From positions 1 through 64,000 of the forward strand of contig JAQGDQ010000440.1 in the NCBI GenBank assembly GCA_030141605.1: 64,000 nucleotides of DNA, written 5' to 3'. The notes under the pieces are model-generated. The model searched no databases. It saw nothing but the letters and a program-made list of their open reading frames with translations, and had not been told where the DNA came from. Position numbers and translations under genes: made by a program. Source of the stretch: Tubiluchus corallicola (lineage: Eukaryota; Priapulida; Priapulimorpha; Priapulimorphida; Tubiluchidae). This document shows positions 59,700-64,000 of the stretch, in pieces (within the stretch, counting starts at the first letter, position 1; each line of letters starts with the position of its first letter).

Positions 59700-59725
59700 A
59701 AAAAAAACCCTCGCTAATGCGAGGG
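59700..59725 (-). terminator. tracrRNA terminator
   Basis: Perfect 7-bp stem with loop atta followed on the minus strand by eight T (plus-strand A run 59700-59707). Confidence 0.88.
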
Positions 59726-59824
59726 TACAGGCTATTTTACTAACCTTCGGCATAAAGCCTTATTGTGATAAGAACTCAAATTTAAAAAACTGTTTCTCTC
59801 AAAACCGTTTTTTTCTTAGAAACT
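59700..59824 (-). ncRNA. Putative tracrRNA for the adjacent Cas9
   Basis: Transcribed on the minus strand, divergent from cas9. From the 5' side it has an A/T-rich anti-repeat (about 59818-59770) ending gagttcttatcacaa. A small stem aaggctttatgccg (nexus-like) follows, then a linker with gttagtaaaatagcctgta, and a perfect 7-bp terminator stem ccctcgc/gcgaggg with a 4-base loop and eight T at 59700-59725. The order anti-repeat, ATAAGG-type nexus, terminator is that of II-C tracrRNAs. The complement implies CRISPR repeats beginning TTGTGATAAGAACTC, which I do not find in this window. Confidence 0.75.
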
Positions 59825-60006: not shown

Positions 60007-63000
60007 ATGGGCACAAAAATTTTAGGACTGGACTTAGGCACAAACAGTATCGGATGGGCTGTTATCGATAAAGAGAATGAAAAGATTTTAGATACAGGGG
60101 TACGAATATTTCCCGAAGGGCTGGAATTGAATAGCATCGGAAAAGGAGACAAAGAGCAGTCCAAGAACAAAACACGAAGGGATAATAGGCAGATGCGAAG
60201 GCAGTTTTACAGAAAGCGGCTACGCAAAATAAAGCTTCTGGAGGCGCTTATAGACCAACAAATGTGCCCTCTTAAACATGACGAACTAAACAGTTGGAAA
60301 AAATGGGACAGGCAGGGCAAAGCTGAAGCCAGAAAATTCCCAAACTCCGAAAAGTTTGCCGAATGGATAAAACTCAACCCATACGACCTGAGGGAAAAAG
60401 CTATCACAGAGCAGGTATCCCATTTTGAACTGGGAAGGATACTGTACCATATGATACAGAGGCGCGGGTTTCTGAGCAACAGAAAAGAAAAAAAGGACCC
60501 GGCATCCATGAAAATATTTACAACAGGAAACTCCGATGAAAACATCCTGCCGATAAGCAAGACCAAAGAAAAAATAGCAAACTCATCATTGGGCAGCTAT
60601 CTGAAGAGTATCACCCCTGTCGACGGAGAACCATTCAGGCAGGTAACCGATGAAAACGGCAGCGACCTAAGGGCAAGGGGGCGATACACCTCCAGGGATA
60701 TGTACATATCCGAATTTGAGAAAATATGGCAAACACAAAAAGCCTTCTCCGATATAGACAGGCGTAGTGTGGAGGCCCGAAAAGTGAGAGAGCTAAAAGG
60801 AGATATAAACGGAAGCAGAAATCGCAAAAAAATAGCACACCTATGGGAAAAATACGGAAACAGCAATGTTACCATTGGCGAAAAAGACTCAAAAGGAGTA
60901 ACAAAAGTAACCACTCTCTCCCGTGTGCCGCTAAAGCAGTTCCTCGCAGGAAACATTAAGGAGGTGGAGAATGAAAACGGAGAAAAAATGCTTCAGTTCA
61001 AAAGCAACGAAAGCGTGCTCTTCTGGCAACGCCCGCTACGATCACAAAAAGAGCTGCTCTCCAACTGCAAATATGAAAACCAGCTGCCGGTTATCAATGC
61101 CGACGGTAAATACCTGAAAAAATCAAATGGGGATATACAGACACGAAGTAAAAAACCGTGTGCCCTGTCACACCCCGAATTTGAACTATTCAGAGCACAC
61201 AAATTCATAAACAACATAAAGTACGGAATAGAAAACAGACCCCTGAACAGGGAGCAGAAAACAGAGGTGCTTGCCCTGATAAACAGCAAAGCAGGAAACT
61301 TTAACTTCTCGGAAATACCAAAAAAACTAAGCCTGACTTACGAAAAATTCAACTACAATGATACGGACAAGGTGCCCGGAAGCACAACCATAAAACAGCT
61401 CAAACCACTCTTTGATACCCAGGTGTGGGAAAACAGCTACAAGGAGATATGGCACTGCTTCTACAACTACGAAGACAGCGATAAGCTGCTGGAAAAACTG
61501 CAAAAAGATTACGGCTTTAAAAAGGGGCTCGATACGGTAGAAAAGATTAACCTCAAGGATGGCTACTGCAACATATCCCTGAAAGCGATACGCAACATGC
61601 ACCCTTTCCTTGAAAAAGGGTATATGGAAGACCGTGCAGCAATACTCGGAGGTGTAAAAAACGCCTTCGGCAAAAAATACCTGGACAAATTTAACAACCA
61701 TGCCGACAGTATAGAGCGTGATATTATCGACATACTAAACGAAAAAAATGAGGATGGCGAAGCAATTGAAAAAATTAGAGCATATCTGTCGTCACCTATA
61801 TACAGCTACGGATTCTCGGAAAACGACCCCCGATTCTCTCACCTCTATCACCACAGCCGGGATATAGAAACAGAAAAAACACTGAGCGAATGGGTGCCTG
61901 AGGTGGAAAACCTGAGAAACCCTGTTGTTCAGCAGGGGATAAATGAGACAAGGAGGCTGGTAAACTCTCTGATGAGAAAGTACCGAAAACAGTTTGGAAA
62001 AGAGTTCCGTTTCGACCTGATTAAAGTCGAAATGGGGAGAGACCTGCGCAACAATAAAAAAGGGAGGCAGGAAATGTATAGAAAAAACAGAGATAACGAA
62101 AAGAAAAACGACGAAGCGCGCGAGTGCCTTCGCAGCCACGGATTACAACCGCTCCGCTCAAACATCCATAAATTCCTGCTGTTTAAAGAGATAGAGGAAA
62201 AATCAGGAAAAGCAGCCTGCCCCTATACAGGGAAAACCATATCCATAGCCCAGCTGCTCGGAGATCACAACCACAACGACAGTATACAGATAGAACACAT
62301 AATACCGCGTAGCGTGTCGCTGGACGACAGCTTTGGCAACAAAACACTCTGCGAAGCCAACTTCAACAGGGAAAAGGGAGAAAAAACACCCTGGCAGTTC
62401 TACTGTGAAAACAGCGACCCCAACCTCTGGAACGCATCATCATGGGAAGAGGTGAAAGAGCGAGCCTTCAGCCTGCTGCCATACCCCAAAGCAAAGCGCT
62501 TTACCTCAAAAAAAGAGCTTGAATCATCATCTTTTATCGAGAGACAGCTAAACGACAGCAGATATATTGCAAGAAAGTCTGTAGAGCTACTCTCCCATAT
62601 ATGCGATGATGTAAGAGTGATGCCAGGACGACTAACAGCCGAGCTGCGACACCTGTGGGGGCTAAACAGTATACTTCAGCCTGTAAAAAACATAGATAAG
62701 CACAGCTTTGACTTTAACAATGACAATGCCATATCATGCTACTCAGTTGTCAACAAGGAGGATGAGGTGCTGTCTGTACACCCCAAAACAAACCCCCGCC
62801 CGGAAACATCCGATAGCGAGATACTCATACCGGGCAGGATATCGAAAAACAGGTTCTCATCAAAACTCTATAAAGTGGAGCTTCAGACACCCGACCTGAA
62901 GGACGGAAACTACTGGGCTAAATTTAAAGTATCGGGCACGGCAGGGCTGGTTCCCATGTTTAATAAAAAACCCCAGATTGATGAAAAGAGCATTGTCCTC

Positions 63001-64000
63001 AAAGGCAGTGTTGACAATGAAAAATTTAAAAGCGACACAATAAAGAATGTAGAAGCAACAGAGCCGGAGGGCAAGTACTGGGCAAGGTTTGAGATCGAAG
63101 ATAAAAAATTTGAAGAGCCGCAAAAAAGCAAACAGCCCAGATTCAGCAAAAAAAACCAGATTCTGCTATACGGTACAGTAACCGGGGGTGAGTTCAAAAG
63201 CTACATCTACAGATGCAGCACCAACCTTCCCGATGGCAACTACTGGATAGTACTGACCCTCAACACAGAAAACACAAAGTTTACCCGCATACTAAATGAT
63301 GCTCCCGAAATAAATGGCAACCAACTGCTAATCACAGCCACGGTAGACGACTCGGGAGAGCTAAGCGCCGATGAAGACAAGGGCTTCAACATGGAAACAT
63401 CTGAAGAGTCAGGAAAATACTACGCAACACTGAATATTGAGTCGGCAACGCCCGATCTGCACAAAATGGATAACCCCCCTCCCGAGACGGGCAAAGGGGA
63501 AAGAGTTGTAGAGGGAAACATCTGGGCAGACAGTGACACCGGAGATATCAAATTCGACCCCGTAAAAAACAGGGAAGATCACCGCCACCACGCTATAGAT
63601 GCAATCACTATAGCACTTACAGAGCGGGGATTTCTACAACGCCTGAGCACAGAAAACGCCAGAAGAGAGGAGAAAAAACGGGGTAACTTCACAAACAGCA
63701 CAGAAAAGTACCCCGAACCGTGGCAGGGGTTTGTGTCGGATGCCAAAAATGCTGTAGAGACCATCCTGACATCTCATAAAAAGAGCTATAAAGGGATCAC
63801 AAAAAACAGAAAAGGGTACAGCGTGCGAGGGCCGCTGCACAAAGATACTGTGTATGGCAAAAGGCAGGCTCCCGGCCAGGAAGAAGGCTTTCACCAAAGA
63901 GTGAAAATCACCAGCTTGGAAAACAATAAGCATATAGGTAAAATCGTAGACAAAACCATTCAGAAACTGGTTAGAGACCACCTGCAAGACAAGCTCGGTA
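60007..64000 (+). CDS. cas9: CRISPR-associated endonuclease Cas9 (type II-C-like), 3' end outside the window
   Basis: RNA-guided DNA endonuclease; 1331 residues are visible without a stop. RuvC-I ILGLDLGTNSIGWAV has D9. An Arg-rich bridge helix spans about 52-80. RuvC-II FDLIKVEMGRDL has E675. HNH starts with CPYTGK (C738) and has IEHIIPRS (H764) plus N778 and N787. RuvC-III REDHRHHAIDA has H1195 and D1198. All catalytic residues are present. The usual short link between the GRLTAELRHLWGL segment (about 874-886) and RuvC-III is replaced by about 290 residues holding four repeats of about 55 residues, with DGNYWAKF-like cores at W970, W1025, W1080 and Y1139. The start is the ATG directly before GTKILGLDLG. 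cas1, cas2 and the array should lie beyond 64000. Confidence 0.96.
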   Translation, partial: MGTKILGLDLGTNSIGWAVIDKENEKILDTGVRIFPEGLELNSIGKGDKEQSKNKTRRDNRQMRRQFYRKRLRKIKLLEALIDQQMCPLKHDELNSWKKWDRQGKAEARKFPNSEKFAEWIKLNPYDLREKAITEQVSHFELGRILYHMIQRRGFLSNRKEKKDPASMKIFTTGNSDENILPISKTKEKIANSSLGSYLKSITPVDGEPFRQVTDENGSDLRARGRYTSRDMYISEFEKIWQTQKAFSDIDRRSVEARKVRELKGDINGSRNRKKIAHLWEKYGNSNVTIGEKDSKGVTKVTTLSRVPLKQFLAGNIKEVENENGEKMLQFKSNESVLFWQRPLRSQKELLSNCKYENQLPVINADGKYLKKSNGDIQTRSKKPCALSHPEFELFRAHKFINNIKYGIENRPLNREQKTEVLALINSKAGNFNFSEIPKKLSLTYEKFNYNDTDKVPGSTTIKQLKPLFDTQVWENSYKEIWHCFYNYEDSDKLLEKLQKDYGFKKGLDTVEKINLKDGYCNISLKAIRNMHPFLEKGYMEDRAAILGGVKNAFGKKYLDKFNNHADSIERDIIDILNEKNEDGEAIEKIRAYLSSPIYSYGFSENDPRFSHLYHHSRDIETEKTLSEWVPEVENLRNPVVQQGINETRRLVNSLMRKYRKQFGKEFRFDLIKVEMGRDLRNNKKGRQEMYRKNRDNEKKNDEARECLRSHGLQPLRSNIHKFLLFKEIEEKSGKAACPYTGKTISIAQLLGDHNHNDSIQIEHIIPRSVSLDDSFGNKTLCEANFNREKGEKTPWQFYCENSDPNLWNASSWEEVKERAFSLLPYPKAKRFTSKKELESSSFIERQLNDSRYIARKSVELLSHICDDVRVMPGRLTAELRHLWGLNSILQPVKNIDKHSFDFNNDNAISCYSVVNKEDEVLSVHPKTNPRPETSDSEILIPGRISKNRFSSKLYKVELQTPDLKDGNYWAKFKVSGTAGLVPMFNKKPQIDEKSIVLKGSVDNEKFKSDTIKNVEATEPEGKYWARFEIEDKKFEEPQKSKQPRFSKKNQILLYGTVTGGEFKSYIYRCSTNLPDGNYWIVLTLNTENTKFTRILNDAPEINGNQLLITATVDDSGELSADEDKGFNMETSEESGKYYATLNIESATPDLHKMDNPPPETGKGERVVEGNIWADSDTGDIKFDPVKNREDHRHHAIDAITIALTERGFLQRLSTENARREEKKRGNFTNSTEKYPEPWQGFVSDAKNAVETILTSHKKSYKGITKNRKGYSVRGPLHKDTVYGKRQAPGQEEGFHQRVKITSLENNKHIGKIVDKTIQKLVRDHLQDKLG

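Follow-up and report, generated by a model that had tools for sequence, protein, structure and literature searches.

We report here a clade of large type II-C Cas9 proteins in which an array of five units, predicted to be all-beta and nearly fixed in length, is built into the turn of the RuvC-III domain that precedes a K-x-R-[DE] motif. The array was found in a cas9 gene at the end of a 64,000-nucleotide stretch of DNA (hereafter the window), which forms the beginning of a 197-kb contig (JAQGDQ010000440.1) deposited with an assembly of the priapulid Tubiluchus corallicola and is bacterial by gene content. The window protein is a type II-C Cas9: it exceeds the cut-off for TIGR01865, PF13395 and PF18541, and carries the RuvC and HNH signatures GLDLGTNSIGW, IEHIIP (762) and HHAIDA (1194). 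Its reading frame leaves the window and stops at contig position 64662, giving a full protein of 1551 residues. The parts of the gene referred to below are the following.

60007..63999, plus strand: cas9, type II-C, residues 1-1331 of 1551 (open reading frame; TIGR01865 of NCBIfam, E 3e-149)
62218..62394, plus strand: HNH_4 domain, residues 738-796 (Pfam PF13395, E 2.9e-19)
62527..62682, plus strand: first piece of RuvC-III, containing LRHLWGLN (Pfam RuvC_III profile positions 4-59)
62668..62727, plus strand: linker ahead of the units, residues 888-907 (891-907 the least conserved part measured, mean identity 0.27)
62728..62904, plus strand: unit U0, degenerate, residues 908-966 (alignment, profile comparison, unit HMM)
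62905..63069, plus strand: unit U1, core GNYWAKF, residues 967-1021 (this and the next three: alignment, profile comparison, model)
63070..63234, plus strand: unit U2, core GKYWARF, the most basic unit, residues 1022-1076
63235..63411, plus strand: unit U3, core GNYWIVL, the most acidic unit, residues 1077-1135
63412..63564, plus strand: unit U4, core GKYYATL, residues 1136-1186 (1136-1189 as aligned)
63556..63786, plus strand: second piece of RuvC-III, with K1187-x-R1189 and then HHAIDA at 1194-1199 (RuvC_III profile positions 86-175)

The insert lies within RuvC-III and holds five units

The first-pass annotation had described about 290 intervening residues (891-1186) between the HNH and RuvC-III domains. 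The segment itself is borne out, with motif limits of 888-1186, but it lies inside RuvC-III, ahead of the catalytic H/D: LRHLWGLN occupies residues 880-887, and about 300 extra residues separate it from the K-x-R that precedes HHAIDA. The Pfam RuvC_III match is accordingly split in two, with profile positions 60-85 missing and some 300 residues in their place. That the nuclease residues are intact, and the insert hence an elaboration of Cas9, agrees with the RuvC, HNH and HHAIDA signatures seen.

By sequence comparison the insert holds five homologous units of 51-59 residues each, where four had been claimed. The aromatic cores reported at 970, 1025, 1080 and 1139 correspond to W970, W1025, W1080 and Y1138-Y1139; overlooked was a degenerate first unit at 908-966, in which the tryptophan is missing but the proline, NE, GxV and FxSK elements are kept. 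A typical unit runs from G-x-Y-[WY] through a long strand and a proline to an [IL]-x-x-G-x-V-like strand and an F-K-S-like strand. In HHalign comparisons of profiles from which one protein, P0087, had been left out, all 10 unit pairs scored 38.6-65.1 with a probability of 95.5-98.4%, whereas 110 controls reached at most 2.2% and 14.0 (maximum scores of 13.2 in 40 column shuffles, 12.4 in 10 reversed profiles and 14.0 in 60 comparisons with other Cas9 parts). The underlying alignment comprises 79 sequences, 7 of 86 proteins having been dropped for lack of a motif. Its most conserved stretch is the end of U4, EGNIWVDKYTGEIKFDPKK in the family, which leads straight into RuvC-III; D1124 of U3 is present in 99% of 78 proteins.

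Number and length hardly vary. Of 121 inserts scored with a unit HMM, 119 give five matches; the exceptions are P0081 with six and L059 with four. The HMM was trained on 78 of the inserts counted, 12 of 54 loci were dropped, the protein and locus sets overlap so that these are not 121 independent cases, and P0087 scores five only through a match to a 19-residue extra piece. The distance from LRHLWGLN to the HHAIDA-type motif is 310-322 residues in 72 of the 75 insert-bearing proteins in which both motifs were found (10 of 85 being dropped). The inserts of P0087 and its near relative P0081 are nearly identical, except that P0087 has one in-register unit fewer, which reflects either unit loss or an assembly error. 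This pair is the one natural change of unit number that could be cited for a largely neutral expansion by unit duplication, in which the array would be kept because it folds by itself and does no harm. Such an origin of the present state is in our view improbable, given the few gaps, the conserved cores, the nearly invariant U4 end and the constancy of the unit count.

Distribution and origin

A database search with residues 891-1195 returned 85 insert-bearing Cas9s, 25-54% identical across the insert, all with HNH and RuvC_III Pfam domains. That search covered proteins of about 853-2714 residues; a second, profile search among proteins of about 175-558 residues gave a single match, a Cas9 fragment, and both depend on shared five-residue words. 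A pattern-led scan of a collection with one genome per species (84,980 species) yielded 54 insert-bearing loci, 52 of them spanning the whole query and two (L054 and L062) only part of it. Forty-eight are labelled Bacteroidota (Marinilabiliales types, Flavobacterium, Gelidibacter, Bizionia, Halpernia, Odoribacter and divergent Porphyromonas), the others being Pontiella, Chlorobiota (2), Marinimicrobia (2) and Caldisericaceae. The Odoribacter laneus protein is an insert-bearing member from a cultured, sequenced strain.

The insert-bearing form is a minority type among Bacteroidota Cas9s, which answers in the negative the suggestion that most of them might carry it. Among 395 Bacteroidia genomes, 87 have a RuvC_III match, and pieces more than 750 nt apart occur only in the genome on which that set was centred, which had been chosen for carrying the insert (a few weak single-piece RuvC_III rows could be placed either way). 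In the family of Gaoshiqia the wide split is seen in 7 of 47, the centre genome included.

For comparison we used 42 insert-free Bacteroidota-type Cas9s, 40 of them hand-picked for spread, and so non-random, out of the Bacteroidia and Gaoshiqia-family genomes above, and two from the window's own assembly. None contained a unit match with a domain E below 0.4; the best, in L076 (score 2.3), had a sequence E of 0.032 and a domain E of 0.41. In a FastTree phylogeny of the cores, with the insert removed, a branch with a support of 100 divides 30 insert-bearing from 42 insert-free proteins, though P0049, P0061 and L061 were left out, FastTree readily joins long branches and the row of L008 is long. 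All insert-bearing proteins thus fall on one side of a supported branch, so that one change explains the distribution.

Twelve of the 42 make up the clade closest to the insert-bearing proteins in this sample; one of these rows has no residues at the site, nine have five, and L097 and L098 have 14 and 22, respectively. The gap in further insert-free Cas9s is 34-57 residues in 22 of 23 measured and 105 in L082; 19 of the 42 could not be measured by motif, and for 12 of those the value was taken from the alignment. The RuvC-III turn has thus been enlarged more than once in these Cas9s. In L082 (G275:C1), whose Cas9 is insert-free, the roughly 105 residues at this RuvC-III site form a linker of another kind, charged and perhaps coiled-coil.

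Predicted fold and relation to known Cas9s

AlphaFold2 predicts the array to be all-beta, with a core pLDDT of about 95; U1, U2 and U3 each open with a strand of 15-18 residues. Of the small tandem beta domains first proposed, the all-beta repeat therefore stands; the model gives no proof of separate barrels. The best fold hint, a weak one, is to paired OB-type domains of ABC-transporter ATPases, namely the MOP/TOBE domains of ModC, GlcV and SugC. It covers about two of the five units, starting midway in one unit and passing through the next into the one that follows. MOP/TOBE families were absent from the Pfam matches of eight insert sequences up to E 10, the array has no good match to any Pfam family, solved structure or viral model, and no matching sequence was found in the PDB.

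The solved type II-C Cas9s of Neisseria, Haemophilus and Geobacillus (ThermoCas9) share the RuvC/HNH core and have no insert at this site. The Neisseria type had served as the baseline in the first-pass annotation; it shows the same contrast, but other Bacteroidota type II-C Cas9s, many of which are similar in overall size, make a better one, with 0-57 residues at the site in 34 of 35 measured. Profile alignment to ThermoCas9 and HpaCas9 places the insert point between the tryptophan motif and K-N-R-E-E or K-S-R-E-D, in the order WNFN, KNREE, HHAVDA; in both, the K-x-R-E motif and HHAxDA follow directly past that point. The closest solved large type II-C enzyme is CbCas9 from Chryseobacterium (8iyq, 8wr4), the top-scoring solved chain for the family profile (E 2.5e-92). 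It is without the 300-residue array, the matching stretches stopping at 986 and resuming at 1025. The beta-REC2 of CbCas9 sits elsewhere than the insert site. In Fp2Cas9 (1548 aa) an HNH residue lies at 868, as against about 762 in the window Cas9, so that this protein may belong elsewhere.

Structures have reportedly been predicted for many type II-C Cas9s by Zhang and co-workers in 2024. No title or abstract found describes the insert; that survey (Zhang et al., 2024, Nature 630:484), which may show it, lay outside the search. As far as we have seen, the proteins were already known and the domain is apparently undescribed in the literature searched.

Possible role of the array

Our tentative proposal, in which we place something less than even confidence, is that the array forms a rigid arm beside the path of the non-target strand and braces or gates cutting; the step from position to function is one that we infer. 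The K and R of the K-x-R motif that follows the array presumably correspond to K974 and R976 of SpCas9. Alanine at SpCas9 K974 and R976 impaired only non-target-strand cleavage (PMC5680257). The arm would stand on the RuvC domain next to the displaced (non-target) strand and reach toward the recognition lobe or HNH, where it could brace or gate the movements that let HNH and RuvC cut. Its effect would then be on the timing and efficiency of non-target-strand cleavage, not on the PAM that is read.

Charge and conservation are unevenly spread over the array. Mean net charge is -0.2 in U0, +2.2 in U1, +3.2 in U2, -6.1 in U3 and -2.7 in U4 (domain borders for the charge, identity and gap figures being our estimates); the basic U1 and U2 may touch DNA or RNA, and the acidic U3 and U4 would more likely touch basic protein surfaces. 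A direct nucleic-acid arm, with OB-like units binding the displaced strand, the PAM-distal duplex or the guide RNA, is an alternative that we consider rather doubtful. Mean pairwise identity in 78 proteins is 0.34, 0.42, 0.50, 0.39 and 0.56 for U0 to U4, with 0.51 for the C-terminal part (1263-1551), 0.55 for REC and 0.64 for HNH. The fast evolution of U0 and the linker would suit a docking platform, that is, an array that serves to recruit a partner protein or to protect the HNH/RuvC face against anti-CRISPR proteins. Solved complexes of anti-CRISPR proteins with the HNH domain are on record, and a large type II-C Cas9 can have a partner, as CbCas9 has in PcrIIC1 (PMC13153721). A shield, however, would be expected to vary in length, which the array hardly does. 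As for a partner, no gene beyond cas9, cas1 (41 loci) and cas2 (36) is common to most of 55 loci by BLAST clustering, some loci being short; a PcrIIC1 gene would have been noticed there only as such a shared gene, no PIN-domain search having been made. We hold the docking platform to be unlikely.

Besides the position of the insert, its few gaps, its near-constant length, the way its distances follow those of REC and the signs of an enzyme in use speak for a rigid arm that gates cutting, some of them with limits. Against it, the array is net acidic (mean -3.6, against +43.9 for the whole protein), which speaks against a general DNA clamp. Gaps make up a fraction of 0-0.02 of the units in the 78 proteins, compared with 0.03 for REC and 0.09 for the C-terminal part, but this low figure is somewhat favoured, because the 78-85 proteins were found by their likeness to the insert and only columns of the window Cas9 were scored. 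A 731-residue model (pTM 0.70) does not place the arm in space. Finally, pairwise distances in the array, with RuvC taken out, follow those in REC1 (0.50) and REC2 (0.48), those in HNH to a lesser degree (0.27) and those in the C-terminal part not at all (0.04), but other domain pairs behave similarly (REC1-REC2 0.44, REC-HNH 0.38-0.39) and the correlations carry no significance test, which may mean no more than that array and core are inherited together.

A further-reaching version of the gating arm, which we would not expect to hold but put forward as a speculation, is that the array is a new repeat fold that arose inside Cas9, in which interlocked OB-like barrels share strands of two neighbouring units. 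It would be a built-in gate on the non-target strand, and this clade would control RuvC cutting by a part absent from described Cas9s.

The CRISPR locus and its neighbours

Downstream of cas9 lie cas1, cas2 and then an array of 33 identical 36-nt repeats, mostly at 66-bp spacing. Between cas9 and the array there is no further likely gene, csn2 and cas4 included (locus L005); farther away these two were not searched for. The HNH and RuvC signatures together with cas1, cas2 and the identical repeats suggest that the enzyme is probably in use. One further element is tentative.

59700..59815, minus strand: candidate tracrRNA, divergent from cas9 (partial anti-repeat within 59761-59805 and a terminator-like hairpin)

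The hairpin carries a T run (59726-59700, minus strand), and the duplex energy of -20.6 is within the shuffled range (40 shuffles: mean -16.8, minimum -23.9). The source assembly amounts to 343 Mb in 2344 contigs, and insert-free cas9 loci are also present in this eukaryote-sized assembly on contigs C869 (L007) and C1464 (L008); probably, therefore, several bacteria were sequenced together with the eukaryote.

In 24 of 96 loci a gene resembling REP-associated tyrosine transposases (RAYTs) stands close downstream of cas9 in the same orientation. Of the 54 insert-bearing loci, 12 have one within about 1.3 kb of cas9, and L038 has a weak thirteenth at a distance of 2.7 kb; of the 42 insert-free loci, 12 have one within about 1 kb, that of L102 being weak (E 4e-7). 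Examples are these.

Insert-bearing loci: L010, 4293-4961; L011, 8009-8653; L025, 8771-9394
Insert-free loci: L074, L087, L093

Over the extent of the loci, none was found upstream of cas9 or on the opposite strand. The gene precedes cas1 in 10 of the 12 insert-bearing loci. Five tested against NF047646 gave E values of 8e-12 to 3e-19, below the 80-bit cut-off. Eleven of the proteins are 19-78% identical, hence diverse, and ten genomes carrying one have between 1 and 17 matches each, the single match in G220 adjoining cas9. The gene might be a Cas9 partner or mark a preferred landing site; among the titles searched no paper deals with a RAYT-cas9 pairing. Five insert-bearing loci (L009, 4479-5132; L015; L016; L017; L054) have a PQLLE-family protein behind cas9, assigned by NF052641 for L009 (E 4e-71) and by BLAST grouping with L009 for the other four. 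In L012 (8355-9020) a DUF6261 protein (E 5e-27) is encoded between cas9 and a transposase-like gene.

Significance

Cas9 is among the best-studied enzymes, yet an entire clade of it has a domain, about 280 residues long, to which we found no described relative. The arm's site is where point mutations of SpCas9 affect only non-target-strand cutting, and nature supplies a deletion control in the sister clade, where the turn at this place is mostly five residues long. If the arm does gate cutting, these proteins would offer a natural model for the control of Cas9 and for the placing of domains beside the displaced strand.
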